From Thiotrichaceae bacterium (lineage in GTDB: Bacteria; Pseudomonadota; Gammaproteobacteria; SZUA-140): DNA of 64,000 nt. Position numbers and translations under genes: made by a program. This document shows positions 3 through 62,886 of this stretch, in pieces. The number at the start of each line of letters is the position of its first letter. The stretch's first letter is position 1. The stretch is taken from contig NVTY02000079.1 of NCBI GenBank assembly GCA_002401765.2, positions 124,001-188,000 on the forward strand, given 5' to 3'. The notes beneath the pieces are model-generated. The model was not told where the DNA came from, ran no database searches, and saw nothing but the letters and a program-made list of their open reading frames with translations.

Positions 3-572
3 TATGCCAATATGGAGGCGATTATTAAGCATGATATTGCGCTTTCATATAAGTTGTTGCGCTATATCAATTCCGTTGCTTTTGGTTGGCGGAGAAAAGT
101 TGAAACAATAAAGCAGGCACTGGTGATGCTGGGCGAACGACCGCTGAAAAAATGGGCATCGTTAGCTGCCTTTTCCAGTATTGCCGAAGATAAACCGCCA
201 GAGCTACTCATTACATCATTGGTGCGAGCCTCGTTTTGCGAATTGATTGCCGCGGATGTTGGCATGAAAGGAAAAGAGCTAGATTTATTTTTCATCGGAA
301 TGTTGTCCGTTGTGGATGCATTGGTGGACCGTCCTATTGAAGAGATCCTTGATGAAATTGGTATATCGGATGAAGTGAAAGAGGCATTGGTCGATGGCGG
401 TACTCCTGCCGCGAATGTGCTGCAGTTGATTGTTGCTTACCAGCAGGCCGATTGGGAGCAGGTGGCAGAAATGGTCGCGTTGCTAGAGGTTGATGAAGCG
501 CGCGTACCGGAACTGTATTACGAAGCCATTGCGTGGGCGGATGAGGTGGGATTGCCTGAATCGATCAAGTAA
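3..572 (+). CDS. C-terminal part of an HDOD signalling protein, probably EAL-HDOD (YuxH-like), cut by the window edge
   Basis: The reading frame is open to the first base of the window, so the listed ATG at 12 is internal and the gene begins upstream. The visible part starts with a motif typical of the HDOD domain (KHDIALSYKLLRYINSVAFG), followed by a helical segment with ALVMLGERPLKKWASLAAF. In the YuxH/CdgJ family this HDOD domain follows an N-terminal c-di-GMP phosphodiesterase-like EAL domain. About 190 residues from this motif to the stop fits that family's C-terminal half. The EAL part is outside the window, so its presence is inferred. HDOD domains are non-catalytic HD relatives that act in signalling. 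The gene ends well before the ABC exporter genes and is probably a separate unit. Confidence 0.8.
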   Translation, partial: YANMEAIIKHDIALSYKLLRYINSVAFGWRRKVETIKQALVMLGERPLKKWASLAAFSSIAEDKPPELLITSLVRASFCELIAADVGMKGKELDLFFIGMLSVVDALVDRPIEEILDEIGISDEVKEALVDGGTPAANVLQLIVAYQQADWEQVAEMVALLEVDEARVPELYYEAIAWADEVGLPESIK

Positions 573-2697: not shown

Positions 2698-3267
2698 CTA
2701 GGCACGGATACTTTGGGTTTTGCGTTCAATTTCAGATGCTGTTAAGGCCCAAAAGCTTTCTGGATAATCATTGATCGGTAGGTTGAGTTTACTGGCCGCT
2801 AGTACCGCAAGAAAGTAAGGTTCTTTGCAAGATGAGATGTCGGCCATTTCAATTGCCTTATTGGTGATCTCATTTAGCGTCTTTTGGTCATGATACTCTT
2901 CTGCTTTTTCTGCCAGGCTAATGAGATTTTTGATGCGGTTGGCGGCATCTTCAAACCAGAAGGGCTTATGTAAGTAGTCACCTTTCTCCATGATGAAGCT
3001 AACATTAGCAGGATCGCTCAGGCCGCTGATAAACAAGAAGCGCATTTTACCGTTTAGCTCATGCATCTGTTTGGCGAGTAAGATGCCATCTGGTGCGGGC
3101 ATAAAGACATCAAGCACCGCAGCATTGAATTTGCTTGGGTCTTCAGAAAATCGCTCTAAGGCAAGCGATGAGTCGAGGAATGCTTCGTATTGAACACCAA
3201 ATCGCTTGGCAATGCCTTCAAGGTAGATGAGAATATCTTTGTCATCATCGACAATCATTAATTTCAC
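2698..3267 (-). CDS. Response regulator receiver protein with short C-terminal extension
   Basis: The N-terminal ~120 residues form a CheY-like receiver. It has the acidic pocket (IVDDDKD), the phosphoacceptor aspartate in AAVLDVFMPAPDG near residue 52, the switch serine in FLFISG and the lysine in YLHKPFW. About 65 further residues follow that match no output domain I recognise, so it may act by protein contact. I accept the GTG start at 3267 because AAGGAG lies seven bases upstream. No histidine kinase is adjacent. Upstream there is a sigma-28-like promoter (separate entry), and a comFB-like gene follows on the same strand. Confidence 0.88.
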   Translation of the reverse strand: MKLMIVDDDKDILIYLEGIAKRFGVQYEAFLDSSLALERFSEDPSKFNAAVLDVFMPAPDGILLAKQMHELNGKMRFLFISGLSDPANVSFIMEKGDYLHKPFWFEDAANRIKNLISLAEKAEEYHDQKTLNEITNKAIEMADISSCKEPYFLAVLAASKLNLPINDYPESFWALTASEIERKTQSIRA

Positions 3268-3316: not shown

Positions 3317-3343
3317 CTATCGTCAGTTGATCATTAACATTTA
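3317..3343 (-). promoter_or_regulatory. Candidate sigma-28 (FliA) promoter of the response regulator gene
   Basis: Read on the minus strand, the sequence is TAAATGTT, an 11-base spacer, then GACGATAG. The enterobacterial FliA consensus is TAAAGTTT-N11-GCCGATAA, so 12 of 16 positions agree and the CGATA core is kept. The predicted start site is about 40 bases before the GTG codon. Alone this is weak. It gains weight because similar sites precede other motility-type genes in the window. Confidence 0.4.
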
Positions 3344-6987: not shown

Positions 6988-7014
6988 TAAAGAATGTTTA
7001 GCTTATGGCGATAA
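6988..7014 (+). promoter_or_regulatory. Candidate sigma-28 (FliA) promoter of the HDOD gene
   Basis: The sequence reads TAAAGAAT, an 11-base spacer, then GGCGATAA. It agrees with TAAAGTTT-N11-GCCGATAA at 13 of 16 positions and has the exact consensus spacing. The predicted transcription start is about 70 bases before the HDOD gene's ATG. This is the best of four such sites in the window. Confidence 0.55.
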
Positions 7015-7094: not shown

Positions 7095-7952
7095 ATGGAA
7101 GCGGTCGATTTAATCAAAGGCTCAGTTAAACTTGCGACGCTACCGGAGGTCTTTACCAAAATAAATGAAATGGTGGATGACCCATCTTCATCGGCATCAG
7201 ATATTGGTAAATTCATCAGCCAGGATCCTGGCTTGACCGCCAGGCTTTTGAAGATTGCCAATAGCCCGCTATACGGGTTCCCATCCAGGATTGATACTGT
7301 TTCACGTGCCATTACAATTATTGGCACAAGGGGCTTGCGTGATCTGATTTTGGCAACTTCTGTGATTAATAATTTTACACGCATGCCTAGTGATCATATC
7401 GATATGCGCCAATTTTGGAGCCATAGTCTTTACTGTGGCGTTATTGCGCGGTTGATTGCGGTGAAGTGTAATGCACTGCACACGGAGCCATTTTTTGTCT
7501 CTGGTCTCTTACATGATATTGGCCAGTTGATTATTTTGAATAAACTACCTGAAATGTCACGAGAAACGAAGCTACGGGCCAACGACGGGGGAATGTCATT
7601 GCAGGCGGTTGAGCAGGAAGTGATCGGCTTTGACCATGCAAAGGTGGGTTGTGAGTTGTTACGAGACTGGCGGCTACCGGATACCATTATTGATTCCACC
7701 GAATTCCATCATGAGCCTGGGAAGGCTAAGTTATCACCGCTTGGGGCGAGCATTGTTCATATTGCGAGTGAATTGGCGACTGATGTGGAGATGAACTCTG
7801 CATTGAGTAGTAGCACGTTTATTGCCACAAGGGTCGATCCCGTTGCTGTTGCAATCACAGGTCTGGGCGCGTCAGCGGTCGAGAACATTAAGGAAGAAGC
7901 CGCGCTACAATTTAGTGCTGCAATTGAGCTATTTTTACCTAAAGCCATTTAG
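7095..7952 (+). CDS. HDOD-domain signalling protein
   Basis: The 285-residue protein is a stand-alone HDOD protein. It opens with the typical LATLPEVFTKINEMVDDPSS segment, then SQDPGLTARLLKIANSPLYG, a central SGLLHDIGQLIIL motif and an EFHHEP stretch. HDOD domains lack the full metal set of HD phosphohydrolases and are linked to motility, chemotaxis and c-di-GMP networks in several proteobacteria. It resembles the three tandem HDOD genes near 37-40 kb in overall plan but is clearly more distant from them than they are from each other. A sigma-28-like promoter lies upstream, supporting a motility connection. It is a single-gene unit. Confidence 0.9.
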   Translation: MEAVDLIKGSVKLATLPEVFTKINEMVDDPSSSASDIGKFISQDPGLTARLLKIANSPLYGFPSRIDTVSRAITIIGTRGLRDLILATSVINNFTRMPSDHIDMRQFWSHSLYCGVIARLIAVKCNALHTEPFFVSGLLHDIGQLIILNKLPEMSRETKLRANDGGMSLQAVEQEVIGFDHAKVGCELLRDWRLPDTIIDSTEFHHEPGKAKLSPLGASIVHIASELATDVEMNSALSSSTFIATRVDPVAVAITGLGASAVENIKEEAALQFSAAIELFLPKAI

Positions 7953-8569: not shown

Positions 8570-9535
8570 TTAGTAGCGGCCCATTTTGGGGATTGCAGCC
8601 TCAGTTTCCCAGGGGTAAATTCTTCTTATCTCGAACACTAGCTGATAGCCAGCTTGGGCATTGTTTTTGACGACTTTGGTGCTAGTTTCGGCTGTTTCAT
8701 AAAGCGCTGATTTGATGATGAGCGTATTGGTGGCGGTCCTTGAAGAGATTAGGTCGCCGATAAAATCGCGTTGTGCCTCTATGTGGTTAATTTCAATATC
8801 ACCAAGGGTTTGCATGATTTTCAATTCAATTCCCGGTGGGTTCTTATGTGACTGAAGCGCGTAGCGAGGGCGGTGATGAAACGTTAGTGTCAGTTTCAAG
8901 GATTCGTCATTGAGGGTGTATGTTGCCGCGGTAATGCGATTGGGGCGAGGGACCACTTTTGTTCCAAATAGCGATAAAAACTCTTCGGTCGATATTTTTT
9001 TGCGGTCATCATTGCTGTAATCCAGTGTTTTTTTTTCTTTTGTGCCGTCTAATTCAAACATGCCGCGTTCAACCACTGCTTGAATGACTGATTGATCCAT
9101 TGGTGGTGGTTTTATCTGGCTTACCTCATCTAGCAGCTCGATTTGAAGTGTTTTTTGCCCATTATCGACGCGATGTGTTTTTGAGTGCCTGCCAAGGCGG
9201 CGCTGAAAGCTGATCGCAATGGTTGAGTGCTTGGACGTTGTTGGCTTTATTGCAAGCGACTTAATTAATTTTCCACTACGTCTTTTAAGTGTTAATTGGG
9301 GGCTAATGGATGTTTGGGTGAGTTTAAGGTTGGCATGCTTTTCATGGTCAACGGATAATATGATGGCACTAAGGTGCCCCCGGTAGGTGATTAGCAACAG
9401 GTCGCCGCTTTGAGTGGGCTTGATGTCGATCGTCGTAATAACGGCTGATGCGCCTAATAACGGCGGAGAAAAGGTGGCGAATACGACTAATAACAGCCCA
9501 TGCGCAGTGTTTCTATATTTTCTATATTTCATCAT
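8570..9535 (-). CDS. Exported protein of unknown function, possibly with an AMIN-like N-terminal domain
   Basis: The 321-residue protein starts with a short basic segment and a hydrophobic stretch (LLLVVFATFSPPLLG) that fits a signal peptide. The following ~110 residues are rich in alternating beta-type stretches (ITTIDIKPTQSGDLLLITYR) and look somewhat like AMIN domains, which bind peptidoglycan. This is a tentative resemblance. A proline-rich linker near residue 143 leads to a second beta-rich half with no recognised motif. No transmembrane helix follows the signal. I do not recognise the family. The reading frame is intact and the codon use fits its neighbours. Confidence 0.7.
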   Translation of the reverse strand: MMKYRKYRNTAHGLLLVVFATFSPPLLGASAVITTIDIKPTQSGDLLLITYRGHLSAIILSVDHEKHANLKLTQTSISPQLTLKRRSGKLIKSLAIKPTTSKHSTIAISFQRRLGRHSKTHRVDNGQKTLQIELLDEVSQIKPPPMDQSVIQAVVERGMFELDGTKEKKTLDYSNDDRKKISTEEFLSLFGTKVVPRPNRITAATYTLNDESLKLTLTFHHRPRYALQSHKNPPGIELKIMQTLGDIEINHIEAQRDFIGDLISSRTATNTLIIKSALYETAETSTKVVKNNAQAGYQLVFEIRRIYPWETEAAIPKMGRY

Positions 9536-9737
9536 AATTCTAGCGAGGGGTGGCGTATGTTAGAGCTGCCACCAGTTTTTTTTGTGCTTAACTATGGTAT
9601 CGACGGGGAAAGAGCAAGCTTTATATTTCTTTTTAATCAAAAAGATAGCAATAAATCGAGCAATTTTTTGTGCCCGTGGCGAATTAAATCTGGTAGAATT
9701 ATCATTAAGATTTATGTGCAATTCCAAGGAGCACTCG

Positions 9738-10232: not shown

Positions 10233-10532
10233 TTAATTATCTTCGTAGCCTTCCAGTACGCTGTCCCACGACTTTCTGGTGTTGTTGTCGTCATCTTCAT
10301 AAGAAGAGCTAACGTCGTCGTCAACATCAAATGGGCCCGACCAATCATCAGGGGCATCGAGCTGTTCCGGCGCAATAGATTCCCAGGTATCCATTTCTAG
10401 TTCACCGATAGTGCCATCAAAATATTGAATTTCAATGGTGTCGTCATGCTCGTCTATTGCAACCACTTTGAATAGCAGGCTGCTGGTTGATTGATACCAG
10501 TTGCCAATTTCAGGGTCATCTTTTACTGCCAT
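10233..10532 (-). CDS. DUF6763 family protein
   Basis: A 99-residue acidic cytoplasmic protein. It carries PEIGNWY, FKVVAIDEHDDTIEIQYFDG and a DDWSGPFD segment, which together I recognise as the DUF6763 pattern found mainly in gammaproteobacteria. No function is established. The small beta-rich N-terminal half followed by an acidic tail could be a protein-binding fold. It lies convergent to the rsd-like gene and is probably monocistronic. Confidence 0.75.
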   Translation of the reverse strand: MAVKDDPEIGNWYQSTSSLLFKVVAIDEHDDTIEIQYFDGTIGELEMDTWESIAPEQLDAPDDWSGPFDVDDDVSSSYEDDDNNTRKSWDSVLEGYEDN

Positions 10533-10768
10533 TTTATTTCAGCCCTCGAATGACTAAATGTTGAGTCGTTAGTGTTTTCTATGACGCTCTGGGTTACGTA
10601 TCGGCTTTTGAGTGATATCCTTTAGAAGCTAGAGACGCGCGTATTTTTTAAATTTTATTTAAAAAACAATGAGCTAGCGAGTTTATTGGCATTGTTTAGT
10701 GTGAAATTATAAGCTTAAATCACAACGTTTAAATGATAGGCTGGCAATGTTGAGAGCGCAAAATATTG

Positions 10769-15223: not shown

Positions 15224-15573
15224 CTGGATTCCGTTTAGAAGCACAACGGGATGACGCAACTAACTAACCAGAGACCTAGCTTAAGCAGCCATGCATCCAT
15301 CTGATTATTCGTATTTCATTTGATTCATATGAATATTTATTAAAATAGATTAGGTGAATCACATCACATAACAGGCATTTAAATGGTAGATGTGCTGATA
15401 TTTTAGCTATTATTGGCACCATAGATATTGGACCCAATGAGTTTTCCTGATGAACTCATTCACTATTTATTGAACAAATAACGTCTCTCAAAACACTGCC
15501 GTTAAGGTATCAAATGGTGTTGCATGTTTAAACGTTACCCTCTCAACCCGTCAACTTAGTGCACATATAGGCC
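15224..15573. other. AT-rich intergenic region before the Sel1 lipoprotein gene
   Basis: No gene is seen here. There is an inverted repeat AATGAGTT/AACTCATT (15436-15443 and 15453-15460) with a nine-base loop, which could be an operator or a stem-loop. No strong ribosome-binding site precedes the lipoprotein ATG. Confidence 0.45.
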
Positions 15574-37160: not shown

Positions 37161-38009
37161 CTAGACCTTCAACATATCGATTACATCTTGTACGTCACTG
37201 CGCGCCTCTTCAGGCGCGGACATACTCTCTTCTGGTGTTAAACCAAGCGCCTTGAAGGCGGGAATCTCTGTCCAGTCTATCTCATTAGACGGGTGTTTTT
37301 TGCCGATGTATGTGTGAAGGTTTGCAATCATCACGATGTCTACATAGTCGGGGCTAGGGTCTGAAACACGGCTATAATTCTCATGCTCTGATGCAACGGC
37401 AATGAGTTCTGGTGGGAAATTCCACCCTTCTAGTACAAGCTTTCCAATCTGCGTATGCAGCTTGTAGGTAATATAAGAGAGCTGCTCTTTATCATTTTCA
37501 AGTTCGGGGAATCGATCCGCATAGGCAAGAATAGGCAGCGCCCCAATGTCATGAATCAATCCTGCTAACATCGCATTATCTGGCTTAAGGCGAGTGAAGC
37601 GTTGTGCGAAAACATAGCTAATCGCAGCCACCTGCATGGAATGTAACCACTGTTGCTTCAAGATGGCATTGATCATCCTTGACCCTTTAGATTGGAATAC
37701 CTGCTCAACGACAATGCTATTGATTAGCGTCTTAACCTGTTTGGCACCAAGACGCGTGATAGCCGCTTTGATGTTGTCAATTTGATCTTTTCCTCTAAAC
37801 AAGGGGCTGTTGGCTGCCTGTAAAAGGCGGCCGGAAAGGGCCGCGTCAATGCGGATTATTTTTGCTAACTGAGCCGACGATGAATTAGGATCACCAACTG
37901 TTTCACCTATTTTAATCGCAACTTCGGGTAGCGTGGGGAGATCAAGTCGTTTGTGTTTAATCTCATCCAGCAGCCCCGCGATGAACGTGTCGATAAATTG
38001 GGCTTCCAT
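37161..38009 (-). CDS. HDOD-domain signalling protein, third of a tandem array
   Basis: This 282-residue HDOD protein begins with KRLDLPTLPEVAIKIGETV, continues with RIDAALSGRLLQAANSPLFRG and ITRLGAKQVKTL, and has the central AGLIHDIGALPILAYADRFPEL. The C-terminal half (GKLVLEGWNFPPELIAVASEHENY and IPAFKALGLTPEESM) is shared with the two genes upstream, so all three arose by duplication. HDOD proteins lack the full HD metal site and act as signalling adaptors. It is the last gene of the array, 20 bases after its neighbour. Confidence 0.9.
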   Translation of the reverse strand: MEAQFIDTFIAGLLDEIKHKRLDLPTLPEVAIKIGETVGDPNSSSAQLAKIIRIDAALSGRLLQAANSPLFRGKDQIDNIKAAITRLGAKQVKTLINSIVVEQVFQSKGSRMINAILKQQWLHSMQVAAISYVFAQRFTRLKPDNAMLAGLIHDIGALPILAYADRFPELENDKEQLSYITYKLHTQIGKLVLEGWNFPPELIAVASEHENYSRVSDPSPDYVDIVMIANLHTYIGKKHPSNEIDWTEIPAFKALGLTPEESMSAPEEARSDVQDVIDMLKV

Positions 38010-38029
38010 TAGTTGGTTTCCTAAGGCTG

Positions 38030-38881
38030 CTATCGAGAGAATATTTGTTGGATTTGCGTTAATTCATCTTGTGCATTTTTGATTGCGTCGATGCAATCCT
38101 CAGGTGAAATTGAGATCCGATTAAAGGCTGGAATTGTATGCCAGTCTAATTTTGTTGCTGGATGATCTGTCCCGATATGCCCCAGTAAGTTGGCAATAAT
38201 AACGATGTCGGTGTAATCCAGGTTAATGCTTGGGTCTCGAAATAGGTCTTCATGCTCACTCGCGACGGTAATCAATGACTCTGGAAAACGCCACTTTTTT
38301 AATATTAAGCGGCCAATATTGGTGTGTAACTTATTGACTAACATCTCCAGCGCGGCTGGATTTGATGAAAGTTCTGGAATTGATTCTGCATATTCAATGA
38401 TGGGAAGTGTGCCAATATCATGTATCAATCCGGCCATCATTGCTTCATCCGCATTAAGCGAGGTGTAATGCTTCGCTAAAAAATAACTGATGGCCGCGAT
38501 GCGTAGATTATATTTCCATTGAGCCTTTAATTTATTTTGTACTTCCGGTGAGTAGCATTCTGATTGAAACATCTGTTCCAGTACCAGGTTGGTCACGAGG
38601 TTCTTGATATTGCGATTACCTAAGCGAGTGATTGCGCTATTGAGGTCTTCAATGCTTTTTTTTGCTCTGAATAATGGGCTGTTGGCTAGCTTTAGCAAGC
38701 GAGCAGACAGCGCGGCATCTAGCCTCAGCGTATCATAAAGGTCATTGGCAGAAGAGTTAGGGTTGTCAACGACGGTTCTTATTTTATCGGCAACCTCTGG
38801 TAAGGTTGGCAATGTGATGCGATTTGCTTTGATGTCATCAAGCAATTCATGTACAAATCTTTTTATTAAATCCTTGGACAT
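38030..38881 (-). CDS. HDOD-domain signalling protein, second of a tandem array
   Basis: The 283-residue protein closely follows the plan of its two neighbours: ITLPTLPEVADKIRTVVDNPNS, LDAALSARLLKLANSPLFRAKKS, AGLIHDIGTLPIIEYAESIPEL, GRLILKKWRFPESLITVASEHEDL, and a C-terminal acidic helix ending QDELTQIQQIFSR. It is a stand-alone HDOD with no other domain. It starts about 35 bases after the first paralogue ends. Confidence 0.9.
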   Translation of the reverse strand: MSKDLIKRFVHELLDDIKANRITLPTLPEVADKIRTVVDNPNSSANDLYDTLRLDAALSARLLKLANSPLFRAKKSIEDLNSAITRLGNRNIKNLVTNLVLEQMFQSECYSPEVQNKLKAQWKYNLRIAAISYFLAKHYTSLNADEAMMAGLIHDIGTLPIIEYAESIPELSSNPAALEMLVNKLHTNIGRLILKKWRFPESLITVASEHEDLFRDPSINLDYTDIVIIANLLGHIGTDHPATKLDWHTIPAFNRISISPEDCIDAIKNAQDELTQIQQIFSR

Positions 38882-38916
38882 TAGTGTGATTACATTATTC
38901 CATGAGTGGTTGGCGG

Positions 38917-39765
38917 TTATTGCGAAAAAATATTTTGAATCTCAATAATCTCTTCGTGTGCATCTTTTATGGCTGCAATGCTCTCTTCTGGCGTCATTGC
39001 AAGGCGGTTAAAGGCTGGTATTGAGTTCCAGTCTAGTTTTGTATGCGGATGATTCGTACCGACATGGCTCAAAAGATTGGCTACTAAAACGACATCGGTA
39101 TAATCGGGATTGATACCTGAATCACGTTCAAAGTTTTCGTGTTCACGCGCAACGGTGACTAGCTCATCAGGGAAATTCCATTTTTTTAAAACCAGGTGGC
39201 CAATTTTGGTATGAAGCAAGAATACAAGTCGGTCAAGTGCCACTTCGTTTGACAATATATCCGGAAGAAGTTCGGCATATTCAAGAATAGGGAGTGCGCC
39301 GATATCGTGAATCAAGCCGCTGAGCATCGCTTCATCAGGGCTTAGCTCAGTGTAATCACGTGCAATCACAAAGCTCAGCGCAGCCACGTGAAGGCTATGT
39401 TTCCAGTTTTCTTTCAGTTTTTTTTTGACCTCATCAGAGAGCCCGGCCTGATAAAGTTGCTCCATCGCCAGGCTGGTCACCAGGCTGCGTACATTGGCAT
39501 TTCCAAGTCGCGTAATGGCCACTTTGACATCTTCAACCTGGCTCTGGCTGCGGTAGAGTGGGCTATTGACCACGCGTAATAGGCGCGTGGTGATGACCAC
39601 ATCGGCACTAATGACCTTTGAAATCTGATTGGACGTTGTGCCCTGATCATTGAGTAATTTACGCGCCTTAAGCGCGACTTCAGGAAGCGCTGGCAATATG
39701 ATCTTATTGGCCTTGATATCAGCGATAAGGTCTTTACAGAATTTTCCGATGAGCGAGTTAGCCAT
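38917..39765 (-). CDS. HDOD-domain signalling protein, first of a tandem array
   Basis: This 282-residue protein leads the array. It has ILPALPEVALKARKLLNDQG, ADVVITTRLLRVVNSPLYRS, ITRLGNANVRSLVTSL, SGLIHDIGALPILEYAELLPDI and GHLVLKKWNFPDELVTVAREHENF. Its C-terminal helix EEIIEIQNIFSQ nearly matches that of the second paralogue, while the third is more diverged there. The upstream region carries a sigma-28-like promoter, which would place all three proteins in the motility regulon. Confidence 0.9.
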   Translation of the reverse strand: MANSLIGKFCKDLIADIKANKIILPALPEVALKARKLLNDQGTTSNQISKVISADVVITTRLLRVVNSPLYRSQSQVEDVKVAITRLGNANVRSLVTSLAMEQLYQAGLSDEVKKKLKENWKHSLHVAALSFVIARDYTELSPDEAMLSGLIHDIGALPILEYAELLPDILSNEVALDRLVFLLHTKIGHLVLKKWNFPDELVTVAREHENFERDSGINPDYTDVVLVANLLSHVGTNHPHTKLDWNSIPAFNRLAMTPEESIAAIKDAHEEIIEIQNIFSQ

Positions 39766-39829: not shown

Positions 39830-39856
39830 GTATCGCCCGCTTTATGATTAACTTGA
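39830..39856 (-). promoter_or_regulatory. Candidate sigma-28 (FliA) promoter of the triple-HDOD operon
   Basis: On the minus strand the sequence is TCAAGTTA, an 11-base spacer, then GGCGATAC. It agrees with TAAAGTTT-N11-GCCGATAA at 12 of 16 positions; TCAAG is also a frequent -35 form in pseudomonad FliA promoters. The predicted start is about 55 bases before the first HDOD gene. Confidence 0.45.
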
Positions 39857-62212: not shown

Positions 62213-62821
62213 TCAAAAATAAGTAATGCCGTTATTTTCAATTTCTTGGTTAATTTTGGCGACATAACGCTGCTCTTCTTCCTTTATTTTTTTTGAACGA
62301 CTTTCATCCAGTGTGACTGAAAAGGCATGGCCTGTGATCGGATGATAGTAGACCTGTAGCGCACAGGTACCGCCTGTTTTTTGCTGGATAACGCGAATAC
62401 GTTCTTCTTTCAAAAAACGGTTGATAAACGCGATGTTTTTATCACCGATGTCACTTTTTATCGATGTGACCACTCTACCGCCGCCAAAGACATGGCATTC
62501 TAGACTGGTTCGATTGCCACCATTTTTCATGATTTCATTGATGAGTAGCTCCATCGCATAAAGGCCATAATTTGCATTATTAGCGGACTGACGGTCGCCA
62601 CTTGCGGTCGGGAGCTTAAAGTGATTCATACCGCCGATGTGATTGATTTTATCCCGCATACAGACCGCAATACATGAACCCAATAGTGTTGAAATGAGCT
62701 CATGGTTCCTAGAGACATAGACTTCACCCGGTAATATTTTGGCGATAAAGTTTTTTCGTGAAAAGTCCCAGTAGCGCTTAATGTGTTCAAAGTTTGGTAG
62801 GGCTTGGGGCAGGGCACTCAT
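62213..62821 (-). CDS. cheD: Chemoreceptor glutamine deamidase CheD
   Basis: CheD deamidates chemoreceptors and can interact with CheC. The protein has the full catalytic segment STLLGSCIAVCMRD with the cysteine, followed by HIGGMNHFKLP with the histidine and a downstream threonine-bearing GGTCALQVYY. The N-terminal ~35 residues (FEHIKRYWDFSRKNFIAKIL) are an extension seen in many gammaproteobacterial CheD proteins. Length is 202 residues. No other che gene is nearby. An upstream sigma-28-like promoter supports a chemotaxis role. Confidence 0.93.
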   Translation of the reverse strand: MSALPQALPNFEHIKRYWDFSRKNFIAKILPGEVYVSRNHELISTLLGSCIAVCMRDKINHIGGMNHFKLPTASGDRQSANNANYGLYAMELLINEIMKNGGNRTSLECHVFGGGRVVTSIKSDIGDKNIAFINRFLKEERIRVIQQKTGGTCALQVYYHPITGHAFSVTLDESRSKKIKEEEQRYVAKINQEIENNGITYF

Positions 62822-62858: not shown

Positions 62859-62886
62859 TTATCGGGTTAAATGGTAGAAGACTTGA
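62859..62886 (-). promoter_or_regulatory. Candidate sigma-28 (FliA) promoter of cheD
   Basis: On the minus strand the sequence is TCAAGTCT, a 12-base spacer, then CCCGATAA. The -10 matches GCCGATAA at seven of eight positions. The predicted start is about 30 bases before the cheD ATG, with AAGGAA in between. cheD is a plausible FliA target, which makes this site a useful anchor for the others. Confidence 0.5.

Follow-up and report, generated by a model that had tools for sequence, protein, structure and literature searches.

HDOD domains are widespread, and to our knowledge the mechanism by which they act is not known. In Pseudomonas syringae, the HDOD protein PSPTO_4229 affects swimming and has a che-like fitness profile (PMC11813219), and mutants of two HDOD genes of P. 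protegens are likewise affected in swimming (PMC11004494). Loss of the HDOD proteins GsmR of Xanthomonas campestris and Cj0248 of Campylobacter jejuni alters motility, according to work cited in PMC11004494 and PMC6543031. SadB of Pseudomonas fluorescens, a YbaK-HDOD protein, is reported to bind c-di-GMP and to be a negative regulator of motility (PMC6543031). A search of open-access papers that mention HDOD together with FliA, sigma-28 or RpoF found none in which an HDOD gene is a FliA target.

We analysed a window of 64,000 nucleotides, corresponding to positions 124001-188000 of the 247-kb contig C64 of the MAG of an uncultured gammaproteobacterium (G000; 3.39 Mb in 88 contigs, 91.9% complete). 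The window encodes a 285-residue HDOD protein (7095..7952, + strand; PF08668 E = 2e-68), here called HDOD-7095. PSPTO_4229 resembles it in domain and length, being a stand-alone HDOD protein of 273 aa, and FliA is not mentioned in PMC11813219. The solved structure of Cj0248 (1vqr) matches HDOD-7095. GsmR differs in that its HDOD domain is the output of a response regulator; a title cited in PMC6543031 places GsmR under Clp control, and neither GsmR nor Cj0248 is described as a FliA target where PMC11004494 and PMC6543031 refer to them. SadB, like the proteins considered here, carries an HDOD domain, and it controls motility. Unlike them, it is a two-domain protein, and PMC6543031 does not report it as a FliA target.

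Upstream of HDOD-7095, the window contains a predicted FliA-type promoter (6988..7014, + strand) with the sequence TAAAGAAT-N11-GGCGATAA. It departs from the FliA consensus TAAAGTTT-N11-GCCGATAA at 3/16 positions, in agreement with the 13/16 matches originally counted. Three further sites lie on the minus strand. The first, TCAAGTTA-N11-GGCGATAC (39830..39856; 4/16 mismatches), sits 64 bases before three tandem HDOD genes that form an operon (37161..39765, - strand; individual genes 38917-39765, 38030-38881 and 37161-38009; PF08668 in each, E = 1e-45 to 8e-44). Another, TCAAGTCT-N12-CCCGATAA (62859..62886; 3/16 mismatches), precedes by 37 bases a second and solitary copy of cheD (62213..62821, - strand; PF03975 E = 3e-24). 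The remaining site, TAAATGTT-N11-GACGATAG (3317..3343; 4/16 mismatches), is a probable but weaker promoter 49 bases before a response regulator gene (2698..3267, - strand), whose product has a PF00072 receiver domain (E = 3e-11) and a short C-terminal part without a recognised domain. Re-deriving the pattern positions returned the coordinates and orientation of all four sites as first described. The distance of 30-70 bases to the start codon given for the set describes the three minus-strand sites and is slightly off for HDOD-7095, since the end of its site lies 80 bases from the start codon.

The observation is thus confirmed, and the list of four, while real in every entry, was incomplete. 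Two more conserved sites on the minus strand, TAAAGCTT-N11-GTCGATAC (9597..9623) and TAAAGGAT-N11-GCCGATAC (10598..10624), bring the window total to six. They are putative FliA-type promoters of gene 8570-9535, whose 321-aa product has no Pfam or NCBIfam match, and of a gene for a 99-residue DUF6763 protein (10236..10532, - strand; PF20549 E = 1e-26). Neither gene is recognisable as a signalling gene. In their -35 TMAAG, -10 SNCGATA, 11-12 base spacer and upstream position, the sites resemble the FliA class III promoters of gammaproteobacterial fliC, flgM and chemoreceptor genes. In contrast to the known class III sets, the genes they would regulate include HDOD proteins, DUF6763 and the 321-aa protein.

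The site of HDOD-7095 is kept in 8/8 genus members, its own copy included (proteins 80-100% identical). The exact sequence of both boxes with the N11 spacer occurs in seven of these, with a single base change in the eighth. Invariant positions make up 15/16 of the boxes, 5/11 of the spacer and 32% of the upstream region. In other genera (48-62% identity), TAAAGAAA-N11-TCCGATAA and similar strings precede 5/6 orthologs, and sites of this type are also found in the independently found MAGs L168, L169, L170 and L172. The site of the tandem HDOD operon is conserved as TMAAGTTA-N11-GGCGATA in 9/9 genus orthologs, at 63-65 bp, and FliA-like sites are present in 6/9 orthologs from other genera. For cheD, TCAAG-N15-CCCGATAA recurs 37 bp upstream in 3/3 orthologs from the genus. 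Of the four sites first described, that of the response regulator is the weakest: its -10 box TGACGATA is invariant in 5/5 genus orthologs, while its weaker -35 box, which is degenerate in the window, drifts. The two additional sites are kept in the orthologs of G003, G009 and G004, at 60-61 bp for the 321-aa protein and at 64-66 bp for DUF6763; the former is retained in G004 although the protein is just 49% identical there. Comparison of the box columns with the remaining upstream region gives p values of 8e-8 (HDOD-7095), 4e-5 (tandem operon), 5e-6 (response regulator) and 0.006 (cheD), which ignore shared ancestry and serve as a guide only.

The promoters of flagellar genes in the genus provide a reference for these sites. 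In six genus members, the fliC promoter reads TAAAGATT-N11-TCCGATAA, and the flgM promoters are of the TCAAG/TTAAG type with GTCGATA or GCCGATA. A matrix trained on these fliC and flgM promoters and the textbook consensus, a small set from which the four sites were excluded, served to score 110 reciprocal best-hit gene pairs linking contig C64 to contig C15 of G004, which were ranked by the score kept in both species. HDOD-7095 ranked first, followed by the 321-aa protein, DUF6763, a globin-PAS-MCP receptor, the first tandem HDOD gene and, in sixth place, the response regulator, which lies barely above the next pair (10.4 versus 9.9). The fliC gene falls lower in the ranking because its promoter distance differs between the two genomes. 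On the same contig of G000, the FliA-type motif also precedes fliC, an MCP gene, a STAS-domain gene and the globin-PAS chemoreceptor gene.

FliA-like strings occur in AT-rich intergenic DNA, and four of them found by a searching eye could be chance resemblances. The scores from a single contig lend this some weight: across the 247 kb, HDOD-7095 is the only site clearly above chance by matrix score alone, and strings scoring like the cheD, tandem HDOD and response-regulator sites are expected about 12, 35 and 41 times per contig, respectively. Among the 110 ortholog pairs, by contrast, HDOD-7095, the tandem operon and the response regulator rank 1, 5 and 6. With three sites at chance-level scores, conservation had to decide; because all four had been chosen by eye, it is also the one independent line of evidence for them. 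The response-regulator, tandem HDOD and cheD sites are accordingly to be read as putative promoters supported by position and cross-species conservation.

Counts of matches to consensus patterns bear on the same question. At three or fewer mismatches, the E. coli consensus has four matches in the window against 0.68 expected, a number reached in 1/100 shuffles. The form TMAAG-N16/17-CGATA, on the sense strand and within 150 bp upstream, precedes 5/56 window genes, those of the 321-aa protein and DUF6763 among them, against 0.04 expected, and the maximum in 2000 second-order Markov simulations was two upstream sites. This form was picked after the sites had been seen, although it also equals the established TAAAG/TCAAG consensus; the response-regulator site does not fit it. 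Each of its five intergenic matches in the window lies correctly oriented on the 5' side of a gene; the reversed pattern yields no intergenic match there. Matches inside coding sequence (15728, 16397 and 35602) were discarded as chance. A further consensus match at 15479-15505 lies upstream of a gene for which the stretches of relatives examined contain no ortholog. Genome-wide, the pattern occurs 75 times in G000 against 24 for its reverse, and the genus as a whole likewise has more matches to the pattern than to the reversed control; many of the G000 matches lie within coding sequence, which speaks for chance. We dropped these counts as evidence, since the ratio of pattern to reverse does not separate members of the class with fliA from those without. 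The upstream-restricted excess, the ranking of ortholog pairs and the conservation of box columns far above the remaining upstream region leave chance a very improbable account of the set, and for the two HDOD sites conservation already largely refutes it.

The conserved boxes could instead be recognised by another sigma factor or a transcription factor whose sites resemble FliA promoters. The link to FliA is drawn from sequence, and fliA itself is absent from the assembly. However, the fliC and flgM promoters of the genus agree with the sites in both boxes and in the 11-12 base spacing, most spacer bases vary, and the other best-conserved match outside the window precedes a chemoreceptor gene. 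We regard recognition by a different factor as improbable, if slightly less so than chance.

In the G000 assembly, FliA has no match above the family cut-off, and FlhA is also missing. The original prediction had named a genome without fliA as grounds for its own rejection, and on the face of it the assembly is such a genome. This absence is probably not meaningful. FlgM and flagellin are present, contig C64 has six rod/hook-type matches 11-19 kb upstream of the window, and complete FliA is found in 8/9 genus relatives; the ninth, 74% complete, has a fragment matching 48 model positions. In G004, the gene order is FlhB-FlhA-FlhF-FleN-FliA followed by a receiver-domain (CheY-like) protein, with CheA nearby. 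Since flhA, the neighbour of fliA in G004, is absent along with it, the most likely explanation is an assembly gap, with one flagellar segment missing from the MAG.

Taken with the occurrence of the motif before fliC, MCP and globin-PAS chemoreceptor genes and its conservation at the HDOD loci across the genus and partly beyond, these data support the proposal of a motility regulon that has recruited HDOD proteins. We consider it highly probable that the sites are class III (predicted FliA/sigma-28) promoters and that the HDOD proteins are late-flagellar regulators. RNA polymerase with FliA would read the sites as class III flagellar promoters: once the hook-basal body is complete and FlgM has been exported, FliA would direct transcription of the flagellin and chemoreceptor genes and, in this lineage, also HDOD-7095, the tandem HDOD operon (three copies in the genus) and the solitary cheD. 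The response regulator, DUF6763 and the 321-aa protein would probably belong to the same set. Such FliA-driven transcription would mean that the HDOD proteins are made mainly in cells with a flagellum, where, as cytoplasmic signalling adaptors without enzymatic activity, they would most likely adjust chemotaxis or the output of the motor, or exert feedback on the expression of flagellar genes. What was computed here is the motif itself, where it lies, how far orthologs keep it, how it resembles the fliC and flgM promoters of the genus, and that relatives carry fliA; from these we infer dependence on FliA in vivo, when the genes are expressed and how the HDOD proteins act.

HDOD-7095 and the three tandem proteins are single-domain HDOD proteins, with PF08668 scores of 230, 150, 153 and 156 bits against a cut-off of 22.9, and are related to the solved structures 3m1t, 3hc1 and 3i7a, of which 3m1t and 3hc1 are nearest to HDOD-7095. 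In the alignment, HDOD-7095 retains an HD pair (H140, D141) and further histidines. Read by eye, the same alignment lacks the HD-GYP phosphodiesterase signature (HHE..DG.GYP) and the full set of metal ligands, the GYP motif being absent and the late Asp not conserved. Because this Asp of HD hydrolases and the GYP motif are both wanting, a non-enzymatic role appears the more likely for HDOD-7095 and the tandem proteins.

FliA promoters would also be compatible with HDOD proteins that serve the transition to a sessile lifestyle (c-di-GMP-binding brakes on motility, for example) rather than chemotaxis or the motor. The reported c-di-GMP binding and motility repression by SadB point this way, as do the HD pair and further histidines of HDOD-7095. 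The second domain of SadB is absent here, however, and Congo Red staining is the same on deletion or overexpression of the syringae HDOD gene (PMC11813219). We therefore think a sessile-switch function rather unlikely, while giving it far more weight than either chance or a different sigma or transcription factor.

Returning to the reading as late-flagellar regulators, the class of promoter is ordinary in itself; what is of interest is that the predicted FliA regulon of this lineage includes HDOD proteins as a conserved component. A promoter type shared with flagellin and chemotaxis genes and kept in related species ties the HDOD proteins to swimming, and class III promoters at two HDOD loci, with conservation into other genera, would tell when and in which cells these proteins are made. 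A vaguely defined signalling protein thereby becomes a testable late-flagellar component. More tentatively, stand-alone HDOD proteins may constitute, in some Gammaproteobacteria, a conserved module of the late flagellar stage that is driven by FliA, is triplicated in tandem in one genus and works directly on the chemotaxis array or the motor. If this is true, it would define where and when the HDOD domain acts.

Where relatives of the HDOD gene carry a name, they belong to Gammaproteobacteria MAGs, of which one is labelled Chromatiaceae. Tandem triplication of HDOD genes is seen in this genus (paralogs about 45-54% identical), and other genera have one close match. There are about ten HDOD matches per genome in the genus, a large set for genomes of 2.3-3.4 Mb, and the first open frame of the window (12-572) looks like the C-terminal portion of a further HDOD protein. 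The notion that all HDOD genes here are FliA genes does not hold, as one paralog group, with its G000 copy on contig C88, lacks a consistently conserved site.

The solitary CheD scores 85.5 bits against PF03975 (cut-off 25) and 190 bits against the best NCBIfam CheD model, under the equivalog cut-off of 223. The other copy in G000 (C64:92138-92713) is preceded by the apparent end of a cheR gene, and the two copies are 42% identical. The solitary gene, with its own FliA-type promoter, is found in only two genus relatives. For DUF6763, the conserved FliA-type site before the gene suggests a link of this family to motility. Elsewhere in the assembly, the FliA-like string TAAAGAAATCACCTACAATGCCCGATA occurs at both C1:2489 and C83:9436, perhaps reflecting a duplicated segment; the C1 copy is found 167 bases upstream of a gene that encodes a methanogen output domain (MetOD1).
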